Below are positions 2,545 through 31,531 of a stretch of DNA of 33,046 nt, piece by piece. The translations under genes were made by a program, and so were the position numbers. Source of the DNA: Candidatus Thiovulum imperiosus. Its GTDB lineage: Bacteria; Campylobacterota; Campylobacteria; Campylobacterales; Thiovulaceae. The notes under the pieces are model-generated. The model made no database searches, was not told the DNA's origin, and was given only the letters and a program-made list of their open reading frames with translations. The stretch's first letter is position 1; each line of letters opens with the position of its first letter. The stretch lies in the NCBI GenBank assembly GCA_024281175.1, contig JAMJTW010000026.1, positions 35,197 through 68,242 of the forward strand, read 5' to 3'.

Positions 2545-4812
2545 CTAAATTTCACTCTCTTTTATAAAGTAGATAAGACTTAAAATATCTTCACCATCTT
2601 GAACTCTATTTTCAATATTTCCAAACTCATCTCTTTTTATTTTTGGAACAACTCTAGCGATAAATTCATCAAAAAGATTACTTTCAAGAGAACCATTTTT
2701 CAGAATAGAGTCTAAGATAATTTTTATTTTTTTATCAACAGAATTTAGAAATGCGACTTCAAGATTTATGGCTCGAATTATCCCTTTTTTCAAGATGTTT
2801 TTTAAATTTTCAATATCTTTATTTATCTCTTTAATTACACCACTTTTTGTTGAGCTTCTCTCTGTATTTTTCAGAATATCTTCAGCTTTGCCAGAACTTT
2901 TTGAGTCTTTTTGAGAAAGTACTAAATTTACGAGAGAGCCGTCACCACCATTGTAGTAGTTATCAAGAAATTTGAATTCTACACCAGAAGTTTCAAATTT
3001 TTTTAATCTATCCTCACTTTTTACAGGATAGAGAAGAAGAATATCAAAAAGGTCTCTGCTAAATCTGTCGATGAGGTAGAAGAAACGACCCTCATTATGA
3101 GCAATATCTTTTGTTATAGAATTTATAAACTCTATGCTCTCTGTTCGAACCTCATCGCTACCAAGACCTTTTAAAAATTCCACTAATATTTTCTCATCAA
3201 TCTCTTTCGCTTTCTCATCTGTCATCGACTTTATCAAAGTTGTAAAATCTCGCAAATATTTCTGATGAAGTATCTCTCTAATTTGGTGATTTACTCTCTC
3301 CACAGGAGTCTCTGTTGTTAGTGAATTGCTAACCCCTTTCTCCACTTTATCAAAAAGTTCTCCTGAAATTGGCTCAAAATACTCAAGTCGATTTGTATCA
3401 TCTCGAAATCTATTTGTAAAATAGAGTCCCTCCAAAATCTCCTTTTTCAACTCCATTTTTAGAGTTTGCAAATTTTCCCGCAAATTCTCATCTATATCTT
3501 TAAACGCTTTTCTTAAAATCACACTTCTCTGAATATTTTCACTATTTTGGCTTCGAATAGCATCTTCTCGATTTAAAAGTGGAAGTAGAATTTCTCGAAT
3601 TTGATTTGAGAAGTTGGAAACTTTTCTTTTTAAAATCTCAAATCTATCACTCTCATAATAGGAGATAAGTTCATTCCGAATTTCTAAAATACCACTTTCC
3701 AATTCAAATTTCTCATGATACTTATCTCTCTCTACTGTTTCAGTTTCCACAAGATACTTTAGTGCTGAACCTGTAAAGACTCTATGTTTCTGAGCAATCT
3801 TATATCTATTTACAACATCATTTTCCAGATATCTTCTATTATTTTCAACTATCTCTAAAGAGATTGCTGTATCCATCTTGTTTCCAAAAACAAAGAGCTT
3901 TTCAGAGAGTTTTATTCCATCAAAATCACTATCTTTTCGAATTGTGTCGAGTTGGGGTGCTGTAATATTTGGTCTATCTCCAGCATTTGTCACTAATACA
4001 ATTGCATCTGCACTTTTCAGTCTTTCAGAAGTCTGTCTCTCATGAATTTTTGTAGGTGAGTCAAATCCTGGAACATCAAAAATTACTGAATTTTGAAGTT
4101 GAGAAAGTTTTGAAGACTCTATTCTAATACTTTTTACACTTCGAGGTTTTGAAGTATCTGTTTCAACTCCTCTCTTTACACCTCGAATGTAAGATTGGAA
4201 CTTTTCACTATAAAGCTCTTCTCCAGAAAAGAGATACTCATTTCCAGAGAGTTCTAACAAATCTCTATATTTCAAAATATCTCGTATCTCTTCGTCACTC
4301 TTTCCAAGATGGAGATTGTAGAGATTTGAATTTTTCTCTTTTAACTCTTCAAAAAAGTCTTCAAAATCTGAAAGAGAGAGAGTCTCAAAAGATGTTTTTG
4401 AGTTTATAGGAAATTCTAACTCTCTCAACATATCTAAAAATATCTTTTCAAACTCATCTCTACTGTACAAGAGAATAGAAGCCTTATCTTCTCCATAAAG
4501 AAGTTTTGTTGATGTAAAAGTGCATCTTTCAGGTGCTGATGGTAAAACATTGCTCTCAATAATAGCGTTGGCAAAAGTTGATTTTCCAGCTTTCTCTAAT
4601 CCAACAATTGCTATTTCAAAACTATCTTTCTCCAGCTTTTTAAGGTAGCTCTTTCCAATATCTCGAAGTTCCTCTAACTTTTCCAAATTCTCTTTAGAAA
4701 ATACTCTATTTCGAACTCTACTTTCTAAAACTCTATTTAGAACTTTCAGACTATTTTGAGCTATTTTTAAGACTCTCTTTTTCTCTCTAATATACTTTTT
4801 TGAAAAATCCAA
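2545..4812 (-). CDS. Dynamin-like large GTPase
   Basis: This is a 755-residue protein with a dynamin-type GTPase domain near the N-terminus. The P-loop is GLEKAGKS (71-78), switch I threonines lie in RCTFTST (96-102), G3 is DVPG (246-249) and G4 is NKMD (311-314). The long charged helical remainder (about 390-755) fits the stalk of bacterial dynamin-like proteins, which bind and remodel membranes. No obvious transmembrane helix is present. The likely start is TTG at 4812; there is no ATG nearby and no strong Shine-Dalgarno site, so the start is uncertain. The gene is monocistronic and divergent from the two-component operon. Bacterial dynamins often occur in pairs; no partner is visible here. 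Membrane repair or phage tolerance roles are known for some members, but nothing here decides between them. Confidence 0.85.
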   Translation of the reverse strand: MDFSKKYIREKKRVLKIAQNSLKVLNRVLESRVRNRVFSKENLEKLEELRDIGKSYLKKLEKDSFEIAIVGLEKAGKSTFANAIIESNVLPSAPERCTFTSTKLLYGEDKASILLYSRDEFEKIFLDMLRELEFPINSKTSFETLSLSDFEDFFEELKEKNSNLYNLHLGKSDEEIRDILKYRDLLELSGNEYLFSGEELYSEKFQSYIRGVKRGVETDTSKPRSVKSIRIESSKLSQLQNSVIFDVPGFDSPTKIHERQTSERLKSADAIVLVTNAGDRPNITAPQLDTIRKDSDFDGIKLSEKLFVFGNKMDTAISLEIVENNRRYLENDVVNRYKIAQKHRVFTGSALKYLVETETVERDKYHEKFELESGILEIRNELISYYESDRFEILKRKVSNFSNQIREILLPLLNREDAIRSQNSENIQRSVILRKAFKDIDENLRENLQTLKMELKKEILEGLYFTNRFRDDTNRLEYFEPISGELFDKVEKGVSNSLTTETPVERVNHQIREILHQKYLRDFTTLIKSMTDEKAKEIDEKILVEFLKGLGSDEVRTESIEFINSITKDIAHNEGRFFYLIDRFSRDLFDILLLYPVKSEDRLKKFETSGVEFKFLDNYYNGGDGSLVNLVLSQKDSKSSGKAEDILKNTERSSTKSGVIKEINKDIENLKNILKKGIIRAINLEVAFLNSVDKKIKIILDSILKNGSLESNLFDEFIARVVPKIKRDEFGNIENRVQDGEDILSLIYFIKESEI

Positions 4813-17276: not shown

Positions 17277-18116
17277 TTGATACTTGAACATGAAATACCT
17301 CAAGGTTCAAAAATATATTTTGGAGAGATTGCAAAGAAGAAGAGAGAGATAGAAAGCATCGCCTCTGAAATTTTAGACGCCAAAGGTTTTACAGAAATCG
17401 TAACGCCTATCTTCTCCTACCACCAGACTCACTCAATAGAGCCTCAAAAACTTATCTACTTAACAGACTCTAAAAACTACCCAATGACTTTACGAGCCGA
17501 CAATACTGTAGATGTTGGAAAGATAAGTTTGAAAAGACTTGGAAATAGTGAGGGACGATGGTTCTATATCCAACCAACTTATCGTTACCCATCAAAAGAG
17601 AAGTATGAAATTGGTGCTGAACAGATTGGTAGTAACGACCTTTTAGATGTTTTGAAAGTCGATTTAGAAATTATAGAAAAGATTGGAATAAATCCAATTT
17701 TGCAAATTGCAAATGTTGAAGTTCCAAGAAAAATAGCACTGGATTTAGGTTTAGATATCTCTATTTTCAAAAATATTGAAATTCGGAAAATTTTAGATTT
17801 GAAAATAGATTGGTTGGAAAAGCTCTTCTATTTAGAAACTTTGGAAGAGTTGGAAGAGGTTCTGAAAATTGTGCCAGAATACCTGATAGAGCCTTTAGAA
17901 AAAATTGGAAATACAGCAAAAGGGGTAAAGTATAATAAGACAATTCTCTCTCCACTCTACTATACAAAAATGGAGTATTACAACCATCTCTTTTTTAGAA
18001 TTTTTGAGAACAATCGAGTCTATTCAAGAGGCGGTTGCTACCTCATCGAGGGAATTGAGTCTGTCGGTTTTGGTCTATTTACTGATGAGGTTTTAAAAAC
18101 TTATGAGGAAAATTGA
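17277..18116 (+). CDS. hisZ: ATP phosphoribosyltransferase regulatory subunit (HisZ type)
   Basis: A 279-residue class II aminoacyl-tRNA synthetase-like protein without an anticodon-binding domain, as in HisZ. HisZ pairs with the short form of HisG to make the first enzyme of histidine synthesis. The core shows a motif-2-like region (MTLRADNTVDV ... GRWFYIQPTYRYPS) with the EIGAEQIGSND segment, and ends in a motif-3-like GGCYLIEGIESVGFGLF. It is shorter than the 320-390 residues of many HisZ proteins. The start is TTG with a good AGGG site. It overlaps murE by 14 bases, so the two are coupled. It could be a HisS-like protein of another role, but HisZ fits best. Confidence 0.8.
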   Translation: MILEHEIPQGSKIYFGEIAKKKREIESIASEILDAKGFTEIVTPIFSYHQTHSIEPQKLIYLTDSKNYPMTLRADNTVDVGKISLKRLGNSEGRWFYIQPTYRYPSKEKYEIGAEQIGSNDLLDVLKVDLEIIEKIGINPILQIANVEVPRKIALDLGLDISIFKNIEIRKILDLKIDWLEKLFYLETLEELEEVLKIVPEYLIEPLEKIGNTAKGVKYNKTILSPLYYTKMEYYNHLFFRIFENNRVYSRGGCYLIEGIESVGFGLFTDEVLKTYEEN

Positions 18117-19395
18117 ACTTCCAGATAGAGAGTATAGATACATCACAGACGACTCTCGATATTGTGATGAAAAGACCGCTTTTCTTCTAACTTCTCAAAA
18201 TCGAAACTTCTCTTCTGAAAAGTGTTGTTGTTCCATAGAACTTTCGGAAATCAGAGAACTTTTTGGAGTGGATAAGATAAAAATCATTGGTATTACGGGA
18301 ACAAATGGGAAGACAACTACTGCTTCTCTCTTCTACTCAATACTTTTAGATTTGGGATATAGAGTTGCTCTTCAGGGAACTCGAGGCTTCTTTATGAATG
18401 ATGAAAAGATAGAGGAGAAATCTCATACAACTCCTCCAATTCTCGATACCTATCGCCATATCTACCAAGCTATTGCTGATGGTTGCGACTACTTTGTGAT
18501 GGAAGTGAGTTCTCACGCAATTGAGCAAGAGCGAATTGAGACTTTGGATTTTGCTTTAAAAGTTCATACAAATATTACTCGAGACCATCTCGACTATCAC
18601 AAAAGTTTGGAAGAGTATATAAGGGTTAAAAATAGCTTTTTTGCTGATGAGTCGATGAAACTTCTAAATCGAGATGATAAACATATCGATTTCAACTACA
18701 AAAATGCCTATACCTATTCGCTTGAGTCGGGAAGCTCTTTCAAAATGTTGGCTTACTCCATGACTCAAGGACTTTCTGGAATGGTTCAATTCTTCCAAGA
18801 GGTTGAGGATTTTCATAGCAATATGTATGGCTTCTTCAACTTATATAACATTCTCGCCTCCATATCTGGAACAAAACTTCTTACAAATAGACCACTACGG
18901 GAAATTTGCGATGTGGTGGAGAATTTCTATGGAGTTTCTGGAAGAATGGAGATAGTCTCAGAAGAACCTTTGGTAATTGTTGATTTTGCTCACACTCCAG
19001 ATGGAATGAGAGAGGTTTTAGACTCACTCCGAGAGAAAGATATAGTTGTTGTCTTTGGAGCTGGTGGAGATAGAGATAAAGAGAAAAGACCTCTTATGGG
19101 AAAAGTGGCTGAGCAGTATGCTAAGAAGATAGTTATCACTTCAGACAATCCCCGTTTTGAAGAGCCTGAAGATATTGCAAATGAAATTCTTTCTGGCATT
19201 TCCAAATTGGAAAAAGTGGAAACAATTTTGAATAGAAGAGAAGCAATAAAAAGAGGATTAGAACTTAGAAATGGCGATGAGGTTTTGTTAATTCTTGGAA
19301 AAGGTGATGAGACAAAACAGGTAATTTACGACAAAAAGTTTCCATTTGATGATAGAGAGGTGGCTAGAGAACTATTGGTGGAGAAAGGAGAGTAA
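18103..19395 (+). CDS. murE: UDP-MurNAc-tripeptide synthetase (meso-DAP adding)
   Basis: MurE adds meso-diaminopimelate to UDP-MurNAc-L-Ala-D-Glu in peptidoglycan synthesis, in the cytoplasm. Visible motifs are the ATP loop GITGTNGKTT (63-72), the substrate loop with SHTTPP, the central MEVSSHAI motif, NITRDHLDYH, FAHTPDGM and the DNPR motif (TSDNPRFEEP) that selects meso-DAP. At 430 residues it is shorter than the usual 480-500, mainly through a reduced N-terminal domain; I recall similar short forms in Campylobacterota. It overlaps hisZ by 14 bases. A 44-bp piece of this gene (19212-19255) recurs exactly at 31488-31531, beyond the CRISPR island. Confidence 0.95.
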   Translation: MRKIELPDREYRYITDDSRYCDEKTAFLLTSQNRNFSSEKCCCSIELSEIRELFGVDKIKIIGITGTNGKTTTASLFYSILLDLGYRVALQGTRGFFMNDEKIEEKSHTTPPILDTYRHIYQAIADGCDYFVMEVSSHAIEQERIETLDFALKVHTNITRDHLDYHKSLEEYIRVKNSFFADESMKLLNRDDKHIDFNYKNAYTYSLESGSSFKMLAYSMTQGLSGMVQFFQEVEDFHSNMYGFFNLYNILASISGTKLLTNRPLREICDVVENFYGVSGRMEIVSEEPLVIVDFAHTPDGMREVLDSLREKDIVVVFGAGGDRDKEKRPLMGKVAEQYAKKIVITSDNPRFEEPEDIANEILSGISKLEKVETILNRREAIKRGLELRNGDEVLLILGKGDETKQVIYDKKFPFDDREVARELLVEKGE

Positions 19396-19412
19396 AAATT
19401 CTACCTTTTTTA

Positions 19413-19539
19413 GTGACCAAATAGAGTATTTTTACACTCTGACCGTAGTCGCAGAGTTTATCTCAAACTGCAGACTCTTCGGTCAGTTCTGGAAGAACCT
19501 CTATCAGAGTATTTTACCTTGAAAAAGCTATTTGGTCAC
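19413..19539. other. 127-bp structured element with perfect terminal inverted repeats
   Basis: GTGACCAAATAG (19413-19424) and CTATTTGGTCAC (19528-19539) are a perfect 12-bp inverted pair. Between them lie four further hairpins. AGAGU/ACUCU spans 19423-19440. A long one spans 19439-19485, closed by CTGACCG/CGGTCAG with inner stems AGTC/GACT and GCAG/CTGC. GTTCT-GGA-AGAAC is at 19486-19498 and CTCT-ATC-AGAG at 19499-19509. This is a closed multi-branch fold. It begins 18 bases after the murE stop and ends 4 bases before the CRISPR leader copy. It could be a structured non-coding RNA or a MITE-like element; no target duplication or reverse transcriptase gene is seen. Confidence 0.6.
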
Positions 19540-19542
19540 CCC

Positions 19543-19960
19543 AAGTAATTTTCATGCACCATTTCGCAGAAACTTAAATTTTAAAAAGATAAATTTATAA
19601 GAAAAAGTTTGAATTTAAGGTTTCAAATATAGGAGAAAAGGTGGTTTTCTATCGTGCATCATTTCAACGAACAAATTTTTTTCCTTAAATCCCACAAAAT
19701 CGATGTTTCTATTTCCAAAAATTGGCTTTTCTTAAATAGATAGGAGAGAAAGATGAAAATAAGAGAAAGTTTCCTGAAATTAGTTTCAGAAAACTACCGT
19801 TTAAGTTTCAAAAGTAATCAAAAATGGCTTCAAACTTATGCCATAAAATTCTCTTATAAAGCAAAAAATCTATGCCCGAAAAATCAAGGTCAATTTTCGC
19901 TTAAGCTAAATTTTATTTTTCTTCCACTACAATTACACCCAATAAATGGGAACAGTTAGG
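19543..19960 (+). repeat. CRISPR leader, copy 1 (direct repeat of 30488-30952)
   Basis: About 418 bp nearly identical to the sequence before array 2. The homology starts at AAGTAATTTTCATGC, where AAGTAA matches the last codon and stop of the WYL gene upstream of copy 2. Copy 1 lacks two short stretches found in copy 2 (the hairpin at 30605-30634 and an A-rich piece near 30700). It contains a 68-codon ORF at 19753-19959 with a fair ribosome site (AGGAG), also present in copy 2. Its changes between copies are mostly amino-acid changing, so I treat it as leader rather than a gene. TACAAT at 19928-19933 is a weak candidate -10 for the array. Confidence 0.85.
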
Positions 19961-20193
19961 GTTCCGTTTCCCTTATAGGGATTGCAAAACTCTAAAATGA
20001 CTTTAGAAGCTGCTTGGATTTGTATAAAAGTTCCGTTTCCCTTATAGGGATTGCAAAACTTGAGTCTTCCCGATGGACCATCAACAATAGTATCTAGTTC
20101 AGTTTCCCTTATAGGGATTGCAAAACTTGTGTAGATAAACAAAAAAATTTCAACATATTGTATGTTCCGTTTCCCTTATAGGGATTGCAAAAC
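19961..20193 (+). CRISPR. CRISPR array 1: 4 repeats, 3 spacers
   Basis: Thirty-base repeats start GTTCCGTTTCCC, have centre TTATA and end GGGATTGCAAAAC. They lie at 19961-19990, 20030-20059, 20097-20126 and 20164-20193. Repeats 1, 2 and 4 are identical; repeat 3 has A in place of C at position 5. Spacers are 39, 37 and 37 bases. CCCTTATAGGG is a short internal palindrome. The leader lies to the left, so it is transcribed on the plus strand. The last repeat runs almost directly into the BRO gene, so the distal end may have been cut off. Confidence 0.97.
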
Positions 20194-20226
20194 TTTCCTG
20201 TAAAATCTCCAAAAAAGATAAAGCAA

Positions 20227-21213
20227 ATGAAACAAAATTTCAAGAAAATTCAAACACCAAAAGAGTTAAGACTATTTCAAGGTATAGAAATTAGAACTTT
20301 GAGAAAAATGGAAGATGACTCAATTTGGTTTGTAGCAATTGATATTGCTAATGTTTTAGAAATTAAAAACACAACAGATTTTTTGAAAAATTTAAAAGAA
20401 AATGAACGGGCTAGATTAAACCTAGGGCGTCAAGGGGACGGAAATATCGTTTCAGAGTCTGGATTTTATAAACTTGTTCTTCGGAGTCGAAAACCACAAG
20501 CTGAGCCTTTTCAAGATTGGGTTAGTAGTGAAGTGCTTCCAGCAATTCGGAAAAACGGTTTCTATATTTCTGAAACGATTTCGCCTCTTCAAATTGGAGA
20601 GATGATTACAGAAGTGAAATCTATTTACGAGGAACGAAAACTTTTCGATTTAGAGTATCGAGATTTGAGAGAGAAAATTGAAGAGACTCTGGAAAACTTT
20701 GGAGCAACAGCTCAGCAAGTGAATGGAATTTTCGCAACAATGTTTCAAAATCTTCATATTGCAAATGTCCGAAAAACAGCGGGTCAAATCGTTTTTGATG
20801 AACTCAAAGAGCAACGAAGAGAAATCTCAATTCAATCTTTCAATCAACTCCGAAAGATTTCAAAAATCTACAAAAAAGATTTTCTTGTAGCTCTAAATTA
20901 TCTTGATGAAAACGAAATTGTGAGATTTAGAAACTACTTAAGACATGTGATAAATGAGACAATTTTCTATATGAATTCACCTTTTACAACTGTAACACTT
21001 CAGGGAATTCAGAGACAAATCGCTCACTCTTCAGCAAATCTTGCTCTAAATATGTTGGATTATGGAGCTAAGAATTTTCCAAGACCACTTCGAGCAGAAA
21101 TTGAAAAACTCTATACTCTTCTTACAGAGGGCGGTTCTGAAAAGGAGATAGAGGAGATTTTGGAAACTATCAAAATTACTCATCACAATTTGGAAGAGAG
21201 TCTAAAAAAGTAA
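20227..21213 (+). CDS. BRO-family (phage antirepressor-type) protein
   Basis: About 328 residues from ATG 20227. The open frame extends back to a TTG inside CRISPR repeat 4, which is not a credible start. Residues about 15-115 are a Bro-N domain: ELRLFQGIEIRTL, WFVAIDIANVLE, the SESGFYKLVLRS motif and the PFQDWVSSEVLPAIRKNGFY signature. The C-terminal half is helical and ends at 21213. Bro-N proteins are DNA-binding antirepressors of phages and mobile elements. The C-terminal half is nearly identical in DNA to the broken copy downstream, while the N-terminal halves differ. TGTAAAAT(T/C)TCCAAAAAAGA stands before both copies. Likely a mobile-element passenger rather than part of CRISPR immunity. 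Confidence 0.75.
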   Translation: MKQNFKKIQTPKELRLFQGIEIRTLRKMEDDSIWFVAIDIANVLEIKNTTDFLKNLKENERARLNLGRQGDGNIVSESGFYKLVLRSRKPQAEPFQDWVSSEVLPAIRKNGFYISETISPLQIGEMITEVKSIYEERKLFDLEYRDLREKIEETLENFGATAQQVNGIFATMFQNLHIANVRKTAGQIVFDELKEQRREISIQSFNQLRKISKIYKKDFLVALNYLDENEIVRFRNYLRHVINETIFYMNSPFTTVTLQGIQRQIAHSSANLALNMLDYGAKNFPRPLRAEIEKLYTLLTEGGSEKEIEEILETIKITHHNLEESLKK

Positions 21214-21252: not shown

Positions 21253-21949
21253 GTGAATTTAAAACTTTTAGAAAAAATGCCAGAAAATTTTCGATTTTTT
21301 GAGGGAAAAGAGATAAGAACTCTACTTGATTTGAAAACAGAAGATTTGTGGTTTGTTGCAAAAGATGTGGCTTCAATTTTAGGATATATTCGTAAAAATG
21401 GAAAAGTTGATACGAACAATATGTTAAAGCGAATTCACAAAGAAGATAAGGGGACGGAAAAAATCCGTACCCTTGGAGGAGAGCAATCCTTATCCATTTT
21501 AAATGAGAGTGGGATTTATACAGCTGTATTGGGTAGCAAAAAAGATGATGCAAGAGATTTCCAAAAATGGATAATGGAAGAAATGCTTCCAGCAATTCGG
21601 AAAAACGGTTTCTATATTTCTGAAAATATTTCGCCACTTCAAATTGGAGAGATGATTACAGAAGTGAAATCGATTTACGAGGAACGAAAACTTTTCGATT
21701 TAGAGTATAGAGATTTAAGAGAAAAAATTGAAGAGACTCTGGAAAACTTTGGAGCAACAAAACAGCAAGTGAATGGAATTTTTGCAACAATGTTTCAAAA
21801 TCTTCATATTGCAAATGTCCGAAAAACAGCGGGTCAAATCGTTTAGCTCTAAACTGTCTCGATGAAAACGAAATTGTGGGATTTCGGAACTACTTAAGAC
21901 ATGTGATAAATGAGACAATTTTCTATATGAACTCGCCTTTTACAACCTA
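21253..21949 (+). pseudogene. Broken BRO-family gene, second copy
   Basis: It starts at GTG 21253 and reads as a Bro-N protein (MPENFRFFEGKEIRTL, WFVAKDVASILGY, NESGIYTAVLGSK, FQKWIMEEMLPAIRKNGFY) for 197 residues to a TAG at 21844-21846. Compared with the intact copy, about 94 bases (equivalent of 20795-20888) are missing here. This shifts the frame and creates the stop. The homology resumes (NEIV.FRNYLRHVINETIFYMNSPFTT, another frame) until about 21949, where a REP-like element takes over. About the first 110 residues differ strongly from copy 1, while 21584-21844 is about 95% identical in DNA. The 197-residue product could still be made as a short Bro-N protein. Confidence 0.75.
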
Positions 21950-22148: not shown

Positions 22149-23465
22149 ATGGCAAAAGCAGTAATTACAATTTTAGGACTTGCACCTAAACCAAGAAGTG
22201 AAGCACGATTTGCTGAGTATTATTTTAATGGTTCTATTTTTCCACCTCTTTTAAGAAATAAACATATAACAACTTTTCATCTTTTTGCTAATAATTTAGG
22301 AGGTAGTTATGACATAATTCCCATCTACACAAAAGAGGCGGAAAAGAGATGGAAGAGTTCCGTAGAAGAGTTCCAACTAGAGGGAAAATCTATTTTGTGG
22401 AGTAGATATCAAGAGCAACTTATCTCTGATTTGAATAACTTAGATGATATATTCTCTTCAATTAAAACTATTACAGAAGACAGAAATTATGATGAATTTA
22501 TTATTGACATGGTTCAAGGACCTCGAGGTGTAGCCATAGTTGAGACACTACTTTTAAAACTTCAATGGACAAAAATATCTTCAAAAGTTTCTAAAATTTT
22601 CATCGGAAATCCAGCAAAAAATGGTTTTGAACTTCTCAATATAAAAGAGTATTTTGAACTTTCTGAATTTGCTCAACTTTTGGTGAATTTCAATTCAAAT
22701 TACACTCTTGGAATTAAGAGAGAGTTTTCAAACCTGAAATTTCAGAAAATTGTAAAAGAGTTAAATAAATTTTCTCAAGCGATTTTATCAAACTCTTTTA
22801 ACTCTCTAATTAGAACTTCTGGAGAAGAAAACCGTTCAACTGTTGATGATATTTTAGAGGCGATAGGAGATTTAGAAAACGATACAAAAGTCTCACTTCT
22901 TTCAAAAGAGTTAGAAGATGTAAAAGAGCATATTTCTGAAATTCAAAAATGGAACTATCTGCCTCAATTTCAGAAATATTACAACTTCTCAAGAATTATG
23001 TTTGAAAAAGGGTATCTCTTAAATTCTATTTCACTGCTAAATGAAGTTACGGGACTCTATGCAAAAGAGAGGTTTAAATCCTACTCGACAAGTGTGAAAA
23101 AGGCGGTGGAGAGTTATGAAACAGAGGTAAAATCTCAAGAGAAGAGACGGGCAAATGGTGATTTCATAAACGATGCTAAAAATTATCATGAACTTGTAAA
23201 AATTTCTCAAGACGCTATTCGATTTGGAGAAAAGAGTAAAAAAGGTTTTCTAGGAGTTTTAACAGAAGTTAGTAGAGGTCTGGAAAGAGTTGATAGAAAT
23301 AGACTTTTCCAATTTAAAAATCTTCTTAAAGATATTGCTGATACTAGAAACGATTTGGCTCATGGTAACGCATCTTCTTATGTTTTAGAAGTTGAAAAGA
23401 GAATAAAAGGATTTTTTGAAGACTTAGAGTATCTCGTACTCACAAAAGATATTCTAAAAGTATAA
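22149..23465 (+). CDS. CARF-HEPN ribonuclease, Csm6/Csx1-like (TM1812 type)
   Basis: A 438-residue accessory nuclease of type III CRISPR systems. The N-terminal part (MAKAVITILGLAPK, YYFNGS, then DMVQGPRGVAI as in CARF ligand pockets) is a CARF domain of the TM1812 type that binds cyclic oligoadenylate. The C-terminal helical part is a HEPN domain with the RNase motif RNDLAH (R400, H405), the RxxxxH signature. On activation such proteins cut RNA without sequence choice, giving dormancy or death of the infected cell. It is the first gene of the operon, before cas10. AAGG at 22137-22140 is the ribosome site. The exact subfamily (Csm6, Csx1 or other) needs a profile search. Confidence 0.85.
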   Translation: MAKAVITILGLAPKPRSEARFAEYYFNGSIFPPLLRNKHITTFHLFANNLGGSYDIIPIYTKEAEKRWKSSVEEFQLEGKSILWSRYQEQLISDLNNLDDIFSSIKTITEDRNYDEFIIDMVQGPRGVAIVETLLLKLQWTKISSKVSKIFIGNPAKNGFELLNIKEYFELSEFAQLLVNFNSNYTLGIKREFSNLKFQKIVKELNKFSQAILSNSFNSLIRTSGEENRSTVDDILEAIGDLENDTKVSLLSKELEDVKEHISEIQKWNYLPQFQKYYNFSRIMFEKGYLLNSISLLNEVTGLYAKERFKSYSTSVKKAVESYETEVKSQEKRRANGDFINDAKNYHELVKISQDAIRFGEKSKKGFLGVLTEVSRGLERVDRNRLFQFKNLLKDIADTRNDLAHGNASSYVLEVEKRIKGFFEDLEYLVLTKDILKV

Positions 23466-29521: not shown

Positions 29522-30493
29522 ATGGCAAAAACTGGAAATTTCCTAGAGTTTATAAAAATCCTATTAGAGAGAAAAGGCGAAATTATATGTCCTGAAGAGT
29601 TTGGGAATAGATTTGGTCACGAGAGAACAGTAAAGAGATATTTCATAGAACTTAGTGAATATCAAAATATTGTAAAGATAGGGATAGAGAAAAAAGCGGG
29701 TGAAAAGGGACGGCAAAAAGAGTGTTACAAGTTAGTTTCAGCTTCAGACATCTTACTTGAGTTTTTCAAAAAGAGTGATGATATTGAACACTTTATCCAC
29801 TGGTCAAACTCACTCGACCCTGAAATTTTTCAAGATTTAGAAGAGAATAGCCAAAAGGCTCTGCACAATATTTTAAATAGTAACGATGAGGTTTTCTATT
29901 TCAAAAATGCTGAATTTGAAGAGATAAAAAATCGAGAAATTTTCAAAAAAATCAAAATAGCAATTCAAAATCGAAACCTCATCAATTTCCAGCACTACTA
30001 TCGTGGTCAAGATATAGAAGTCTTTGAAGCAAAACCTATCAGAATTCTCTTTAATGAAAATAATTGGTATCTCCTTTTTGTTGAGAATGAGAACCTCCAG
30101 TTTTCCAGAATCAACTTCATAAACTCTTTGGAAATTGTAGAAAAGAGATTTCTTAAAAGTGAAATTGAGAAATTTGAGAAGCTGATTCCAAAAATTCAGA
30201 ATCCAATGACTCTTTTTAATCAAAAACCAAAAGTTGCCAAGATTCGAGCATTGTCTGGAATCTCAAAATATTTTGGAGAGAATTCAAAAAAGTTTTTAAG
30301 AAGTCAAAAGTTTCTTAAAGAGAATAGAGATGGTAGTGTAGATTTTGAAATAAGCTATACTCAACCTCTTGAAGTTTTACCTTTTATAAAAAAGTGGCTT
30401 CCAAATCTCCAAATCTTAGAATCTCCAGAAGCAGAACTTCAAAAAGCTCTCCAAAAAGATTTAAAAGAGATGTTGGCAATATTAGAAAAGTAA
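29522..30493 (+). CDS. WYL-domain transcriptional regulator
   Basis: A 323-residue regulator with an N-terminal winged helix-turn-helix (about 5-70, GNRFGHERTVKRYFIEL) and a WYL domain (about 140-205) in which NWYLLFVE (181-188) gives the name motif. A C-terminal WCX-like domain (about 235-320) ends LQKALQKDLKEMLAI. WYL proteins bind nucleic-acid-like ligands and often control CRISPR-Cas or other defence operons. It is the last gene of the operon, 3 bases after csx20, and its stop codon lies inside the repeat shared with leader copy 1. It may repress or activate the cas operon; the target is unknown. Confidence 0.85.
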   Translation: MAKTGNFLEFIKILLERKGEIICPEEFGNRFGHERTVKRYFIELSEYQNIVKIGIEKKAGEKGRQKECYKLVSASDILLEFFKKSDDIEHFIHWSNSLDPEIFQDLEENSQKALHNILNSNDEVFYFKNAEFEEIKNREIFKKIKIAIQNRNLINFQHYYRGQDIEVFEAKPIRILFNENNWYLLFVENENLQFSRINFINSLEIVEKRFLKSEIEKFEKLIPKIQNPMTLFNQKPKVAKIRALSGISKYFGENSKKFLRSQKFLKENRDGSVDFEISYTQPLEVLPFIKKWLPNLQILESPEAELQKALQKDLKEMLAILEK

Positions 30494-30952
30494 TTTTCAT
30501 GCACCATTTCGCTGAAACTTAAATTTTAAAAAGAGAGATTTATAAGAAAAAGTTGGAATTTAAGGTTTCAAATATAGGAGAAAAGGTGGTTTCCTATCGT
30601 GCATCGTTGCTAAAGAGTGCAAAGCACTGCAACGAACAAATTTTTTTCCTTAAATCCCACAAAATCGATGTTTCTATTTCCAAAAATTGGTTTTTCTTAA
30701 AGAAAAAAATTAGATATACTTCCAAAAATAGATAGGAGAGAAAGATGAAAATAAGAGAAAGTTTCCTGAAATTAGTTTCAGAAAACTACCGTTTAAGTTT
30801 CAGAAGCAATCAAAAATGGCTTCAAACTTATGCCATAAAAATTTCTTATAAAGCAAAAAATCTATGCCCGAAAAATCGAGGTCAATTTTTGCTTAAGCTA
30901 AATTTTATTTTTCTTCCACTACAATTACACCCAATAAATGGGAACAGTTATG
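30488..30952 (+). repeat. CRISPR leader, copy 2
   Basis: A near-identical direct repeat of 19543-19960, overlapping the end of the WYL gene. It has two additions compared with copy 1: a hairpin at 30605-30634 (CGTTGC...GCAACG with inner AGTGC-AAA-GCACT) and about 26 bases near 30700 that add GATATACT, a possible -10. An ORF at 30745-30987 (80 codons) matches the one in copy 1 but runs into the first CRISPR repeat. Candidate -10 for the array is TACAAT at 30920-30925. Confidence 0.85.
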
Positions 30953-31272
30953 GTTCCGTTTCCCTTATAGGGATTGCAAAACTGTAAATGTCTCAGATGT
31001 AACTTCATTTTCAGAGAAGTTGTTCCGTTTCCCTTATAGGGATTGCAAAACTACTTTAAATTTCAAAGAAGGTAGAGCAGTACCAACAGAAGTTCCGTTT
31101 CCCTTATAGGGATTGCAAAACAAAAACTCCACCCTCAAAGTTTCTAGTTGTGCTAATGTAGTCAATGTTCTGTTTCTCTTATAGGGATTGCAAAACTAAT
31201 AAGTGATTTATCATTTAAAATCCTCAACATAACCACCATACAGTTCTGTTTCCCTTATAGGGATTGCAAAAC
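30953..31272 (+). CRISPR. CRISPR array 2: 5 repeats, 4 spacers
   Basis: Same 30-base repeat as array 1, at 30953-30982, 31022-31051, 31092-31121, 31167-31196 and 31243-31272. Repeats 1-3 are perfect. Repeat 4 has two C-to-T changes (positions 5 and 11) and repeat 5 one (position 5), as expected at the leader-far end. Spacers are 39, 40, 45 and 46 bases, the older ones longer. None is shared with array 1 and I saw no match elsewhere in the window. Confidence 0.97.
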
Positions 31273-31487
31273 GATTACTTGCTAGGATAAGTCACTACAG
31301 TACTCATTAGCTTATCTTGAACGCCTAAGTTTTCCAGAAGCATGTTCGTTTCTCTTTTTTAAATTCCGTATAGCTTTCCAAGTTATGTTGGAATAAAATA
31401 GGAGTTTTTGAAATAAATTCCAAAGAATTCGAGAAATTGGAGATTTGCTTTTGAGAAGTTCAGGATAAAACTTCTTGTAAATTATGG
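31273..31487. other. Intergenic stretch after array 2
   Basis: No convincing gene. A minus-strand open frame of 80 codons covers 31312-31554 but has no ribosome site or family resemblance. A small inverted repeat AGAAGTT/AACTTCT lies near 31455-31476. The stretch may be a decayed remnant. Confidence 0.35.
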
Positions 31488-31531
31488 AAAAGTGGAAACA
31501 ATTTTGAATAGAAGAGAAGCAATAAAAAGAG
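31488..31531 (+). repeat. 44-bp exact copy of an internal murE segment
   Basis: Identical to 19212-19255 in murE over 44 bases, in the same orientation, from AAAAGTGGAAAC to AATAAAAAGAG. Sequence on both sides differs from murE. It lies 216 bases past array 2, so the CRISPR island is bracketed by murE sequence on both sides. Confidence 0.9.

Follow-up and report, generated by a model that had tools for sequence, protein, structure and literature searches.

The multi-hairpin segment between murE and the CRISPR leader of the window (the whole stretch of 33,046 nucleotides that was analyzed) is almost certainly a MITE, a gene-less, non-autonomous DNA transposon whose termini are 16-bp inverted repeats. 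The family to which it belongs, the ends of its members, their 8-bp target duplications, and their intergenic distribution were observed in the genome. What seems a strange structure is in this way accounted for by a common type of mobile DNA.

Ends and predicted fold of the segment

A perfect 12-bp inverted repeat was found, with GTGACCAAATAG at 19413-19424 and CTATTTGGTCAC at 19528-19539, in agreement with the preliminary description. The multi-hairpin architecture reported there was recovered by folding as well: in the predicted structure, the 12-bp helix closes the segment, three stacked stems form one long hairpin, and additional small stem-loops are present. As RNA, the plus strand had a folding energy of -42.2 kcal/mol (z -5.57) and the minus strand -45.7 kcal/mol (z -5.22), and none of the 200 shuffles was as stable in either case. 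With DNA parameters, the fold of the 127-bp segment had a z value of -5.55.

The extent given earlier, 19413-19539, is accurate for the 12-bp repeat but not for the whole element: the real terminal repeat is longer, and the element occupies 19409-19542. Other copies give the full ends as GGGA(S)TGACCAAATAG / CTATTTGGTCA(S)TCCC; in the window copy, the left GGGA has changed to TTTA and the right TCCC to CCC. The window segment is a decayed copy of a MITE with the following parts:

19409..19424, plus strand: left terminal inverted repeat, with GTGACCAAATAG intact on the inside and the outer GGGA degenerated to TTTA (comparison with other paired elements)
19425..19527, no strand assigned: interior of type A, non-coding (BLAST and alignment A1)
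19528..19542, minus strand: right terminal inverted repeat, CTATTTGGTCAC followed by CCC (TCCC minus T)

A dispersed family with 8-bp target duplications

The genome searched comprised 2.2 Mb in 36 contigs and was 98% complete. BLAST of the 127-bp query against the whole genome gave 44 matches, with E-values reaching 1e-28 besides the match to itself. The 12-mer end with at most one mismatch occurred at 152 genome sites, compared with 8 for the reversed control, and the exact 16-mer GGGASTGACCAAATAG at 56 sites, compared with none for its reversed form. Paired ends were extracted from 80 genome stretches around the end sites; comparison of the pairs gave a true end of 16 bp, GGGASTGACCAAATAG. 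The pairs made up 52 distinct non-overlapping elements of about 97-197 bp. The segment had been said to match neither repeat family of the window. This is correct insofar as its interior is unmatched elsewhere in the window, but a family does exist in the genome, as the 44 matches demonstrate.

The interiors fell into at least three types: type A, that of the window copy (about 15 elements, some of them loosely assigned), type B (about 34 elements, mostly 160-176 bp), and type C (about 3 elements). Type A copies besides that of the window include L002-L005, L007, L008, L010, L011, L015, and L020, among others, as identified by BLAST and alignment A1. Mean likeness over the longer sequence was 0.78 for type B and 0.55 for type A; type B copies are thus more alike, and type A looks older or more broken. 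Open reading frames covered 3% of the elements versus 72% of random places in the same stretches, an intergenic bias that is partly expected from selection against insertions into genes.

Two further observations concern the family as a whole. Type B interiors, e.g., L069:1382-1556, are palindromic, built of GTCATTTCGA...GAGAAATCT units, and may themselves be an older repeat that the ends came to enclose. Two element loci recur together with their flanks as inverted or direct copies (L066 and L067; L036:1422-1587 and 3237-3402), representing either segmental duplications or assembly repeats.

With the ends taken at GGGA/TCCC, exact 8-bp direct repeats flanked 18 elements. When the right flanks were shuffled among the elements, a mean of 0.37 such duplications was expected, with a maximum of 3 in 1000 shuffles. 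Exact matches of 5, 6, 7, 9, 10, or 11 bp numbered 0-1 each and formed no peak. Three of the duplications belong to type A copies (L005, GAAAATAT; L011, AAAAATAA; L020, GAAAGGAA), which indicates that the subfamily of the window copy moved in this manner. A fixed 8-bp duplication is characteristic of DDE transposases with an 8-bp stagger.

The properties of a MITE are thereby found in the family: the elements share terminal inverted repeats (16-bp GGGASTGACCAAATAG), they are short, numerous, and devoid of a transposase gene (n = 52, 97-197 bp), and they produce target duplications of fixed length. The window copy itself lacks a target duplication, and its own transposition is therefore deduced from that of its family. 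The earlier suggestion of a small mobile element is strongly supported by the dispersed family, the 16-bp ends, the exact 8-bp duplications, and the intergenic distribution. No paper describing the 16-mer GGGASTGACCAAATAG or the family was found in a literature search; the family is a new one of a known kind. REP/BIME sequences, which are moved by RAYT/Y1 enzymes without target duplication, were also considered as an identity and rejected because 8-bp duplications are present. No pair of filled and empty sites was readable from the relatives, which are too diverged.

We propose that a putative DDE-type transposase acting in trans would recognize the GGGASTGACCAAATAG ends, and that copies would have been inserted into AT-rich intergenic sites with duplication of an 8-bp target. 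The stem-loops would then simply follow from the inverted repeats and from palindromic pieces in the interior. The outermost bases are unpaired in several copies, as expected if the ends serve only as protein-binding sites.

A chance fold of no history can practically be dismissed. Its sole support is that AT-rich intergenic DNA has low complexity; it is refuted by the other copies found in the genome, by the shuffles, none of which folded as well, and by the target duplications of the family. The preliminary description had named a BLAST search for further copies as a check, their absence counting in favor of chance; copies abound, and that ground for refutation falls away.

The same description had offered a structured non-coding RNA as another explanation. 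We consider it scarcely credible that the segment is such an RNA, or a 3' structure or processing site of the murE mRNA, selected for its fold. Its stability (z about -5.5) would suit this function, and most type A copies retain the inner stems CTCTGAG/CTCAGAG and GAGTC/GACTC; yet both strands fold equally, Rfam gave no match, and the 52 copies are scattered and carry 8-bp target duplications. Covariation, suggested beforehand as a check, did not appear in the helices: none of the 15 consensus pairs predicted by RNAalifold in 15 type A copies had a compensatory change. Pairs of the window fold were changed on both sides in 6 cases versus 4.7 in shuffles, with 131 of 500 shuffles scoring as high, so that in this comparison the fold was no better than shuffles. 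Shuffles came close to the window fold both in covariation score and in the percentage of cells that were paired; its slight excess can be explained by relatedness alone.

That the segment is a transcription terminator of murE is highly unlikely. It does lie 13 bp after the murE stop codon, a place where murE of another genome of the same genus (G001) has a terminator. Against this reading, no terminator-like site was found in 19300-19700, and the neighbors of the elements were convergent, divergent, and tandem in the proportion 10:10:27, with no convergent excess. Taken together, the lack of compensatory change, of an Rfam match, and of a convergent bias leaves both the structured RNA and the terminator unsupported, and we retain the MITE as the identity of the segment.

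The junction with the duplicated CRISPR leader

The surroundings of the window copy comprise the following features:

18103..19395, plus strand: murE, intact, with relatives 66-77% identical; the element starts 13 bp past its stop codon
19543..19960, plus strand: first copy of the CRISPR leader (BLAST match to 30488 onward)
29522-30493: WYL-domain gene (PF13280)
30488..30960, plus strand: second (parental) copy of the CRISPR leader, without the element

The right end of the element is followed directly by AAGTAATTTTC, the start of the leader homology (19543 = 30488). The element had been placed 4 bp from the leader, at the breakpoint of the duplication. The distance proved incorrect, since the homology starts at the outer end, at 19543; the position of the junction at the end of the element is right. 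The first six bases of the leader, AAGTAA, are the last codon and the stop codon of the WYL-domain gene (29522-30493). As AAGTAA at 30488 is the end of this gene, the leader copy at 19543 was probably derived from that at 30488.

The most economical history that we can propose would begin with insertion of the element at AAGTAATT, the stop codon in a duplicated segment of the WYL-domain gene and leader. Sequence between the left end of the element and a point 13 bp past the murE stop would then have been deleted, and with it the left-hand copy of the target and the outermost GGG. In G001, murE is followed by its terminator and by other genes; neither the element nor a CRISPR is present there.

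Alternatively, the element could have caused the leader duplication, if a transposase acted on its right end or if copies recombined, so that the CRISPR segment was joined precisely to that end. The homology with the parental leader begins at the very first base after the right end, and the window copy lacks a target duplication; moreover, composites bounded by the terminal inverted repeats elsewhere in the genome enclose a C5-methyltransferase gene (L030) or Bro-N genes (L026, L039). On the other hand, insertion into the leader copy and deletion on the left would produce an identical junction, the element has no second copy at the parental leader or elsewhere in the window, and the composites have no target duplications. 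We therefore regard a causal role as unlikely; a transposase working on the right end could have made the junction, but the junction can be explained without one. The earlier proposal that the element helped the rearrangement is thus not established, since insertion followed by left-hand deletion gives the same picture. Even so, a causal role would concern this copy alone and would be compatible with the MITE identity.

Several other observations were made in the CRISPR region. A 47-bp murE fragment (31485-31531, 98% identical to 19208-19255, E 7e-18) lies downstream of the second CRISPR array and is followed by the hairpin AAAGAGTC-AAAA-GACTCTTT; a common history of rearrangement is thereby suggested for the murE tail and the CRISPR-Cas island. 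Directly after the first CRISPR array, two Bro-N genes (20185-21213 and 21253-21846) with near-identical parts were found, including a 287-bp repeat at 92%. The gene at 22149-23465, located beside cas10/csm1, has a weak HEPN (Apea-like) match and possibly encodes a CRISPR-associated CARF-HEPN effector.

Transposase, distribution, and known MITEs

Transposases of six families (PF12762, PF00872, PF01609, PF03400, PF01610, and NF033572) were not found in the genome, and no autonomous copy was present between the ends in the stretches examined. IS1595 and IS256 family members produce duplications of 8 or 8-9 bp and have ends beginning with GG. The family described here resembles both in duplication length and in the GG start, whereas neither transposase is encoded in the genome. 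Derivation of the MITE from IS1595 or IS256 found no support, as a transposase with the same ends (PF12762 and Transposase_mut, PF00872, respectively) was absent from G000, G040, and G041. DDE_Tnp_1 matches in two foreign genomes were also rejected as a partner, having no such ends alongside. The partner transposase may belong to another family, may lie in the missing 2% of the genome, or may have been lost.

Three longer units of 1.5-1.85 kb (L026, L030, and L039) were tried as autonomous copies and rejected: they hold Bro-N or methyltransferase genes and have no target duplication. Between MITE ends of mixed types, L030:1404-2932 contains a C5-cytosine methyltransferase gene, and L026:1711-3396 and L039:1322-3167 contain Bro-N genes. 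The mixed end types and the lack of a target duplication indicate that these units are probably composites of two elements. The Bro-N protein encoded at L039:1953-2807 additionally contains a stretch resembling a DUF559 endonuclease and a DeoR-like helix-turn-helix, which seems an unusual combination.

Beyond this genome, the exact 16-mer GGGASTGACCAAATAG was absent from all of the 396 further genomes sampled from the phylum, and the 127-bp query had no match in 39 relatives. The gammaproteobacterial MAG CSMAG_1677 contains a 163-bp MITE (L087, L098, L106, L115, L122, and L133) with the same 16-bp left end and a right end with 2-3 differences; exact 8-bp duplications were present in five copies. 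This MITE is thus similar to the window family in its ends and duplication and differs in its length, its unrelated interior, and the phylum of its host. One palindromic element with the same ends was found in a Bacteroidales MAG (L108). The 56 stretches with the 16-mer in public genomes were mostly single and unpaired and therefore look like chance matches; viral contigs gave four single matches.

It is a quite unlikely reading that the GGGASTGACCAAATAG ends and the 8-bp duplication mark an undescribed transposase family that crosses at least two, perhaps three, phyla and is seen here only via its MITEs, elements of which in this genome also bound composites with DNA methyltransferase or Bro-N genes. 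Absence of the family from the 396 genomes of the phylum, together with the ends in the gammaproteobacterial MAG, makes both transfer and the missing transposase testable. What is gained is a tested family, with its ends, its 8-bp target duplication, and a list of copies. The occurrence of MITE ends next to CRISPR leaders and cargo genes is relevant when rearrangements at such places are read.

Bacterial MITEs such as Correia/NEMIS, RUP, and ERIC are shorter than 200 bp, have no gene, carry terminal inverted repeats, duplicate their target, and are mostly intergenic, and their transcripts are predicted to fold into long stem-loops (PMC2229807, PMC10969869). Correia, RUP, and ERIC differ from the window family in ends and target. 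The MITE families treated in PMC2229807 mostly have 5'-TA ends, in contrast to the GGGASTGACCAAATAG ends and 8-bp duplications found here, and no sequence kinship was seen. The abundant hupL MITE of Candidatus Thiomargarita nelsonii is like the window family in that its parental IS was not found, and differs in its described 10-bp direct repeat and 19-bp inverted repeat (PMC4853749). RUP of Streptococcus pneumoniae is about 107 bp long and present in about 100 intergenic copies, and an IS has been proposed to mobilize it in trans (PMC2229807). RUP has TA targets and the proposed partner IS630-Spn1 (PMC2229807), whereas the window family has an 8-bp target and no partner was found. By the properties listed for bacterial MITEs in PMC2229807, the window family is a MITE.
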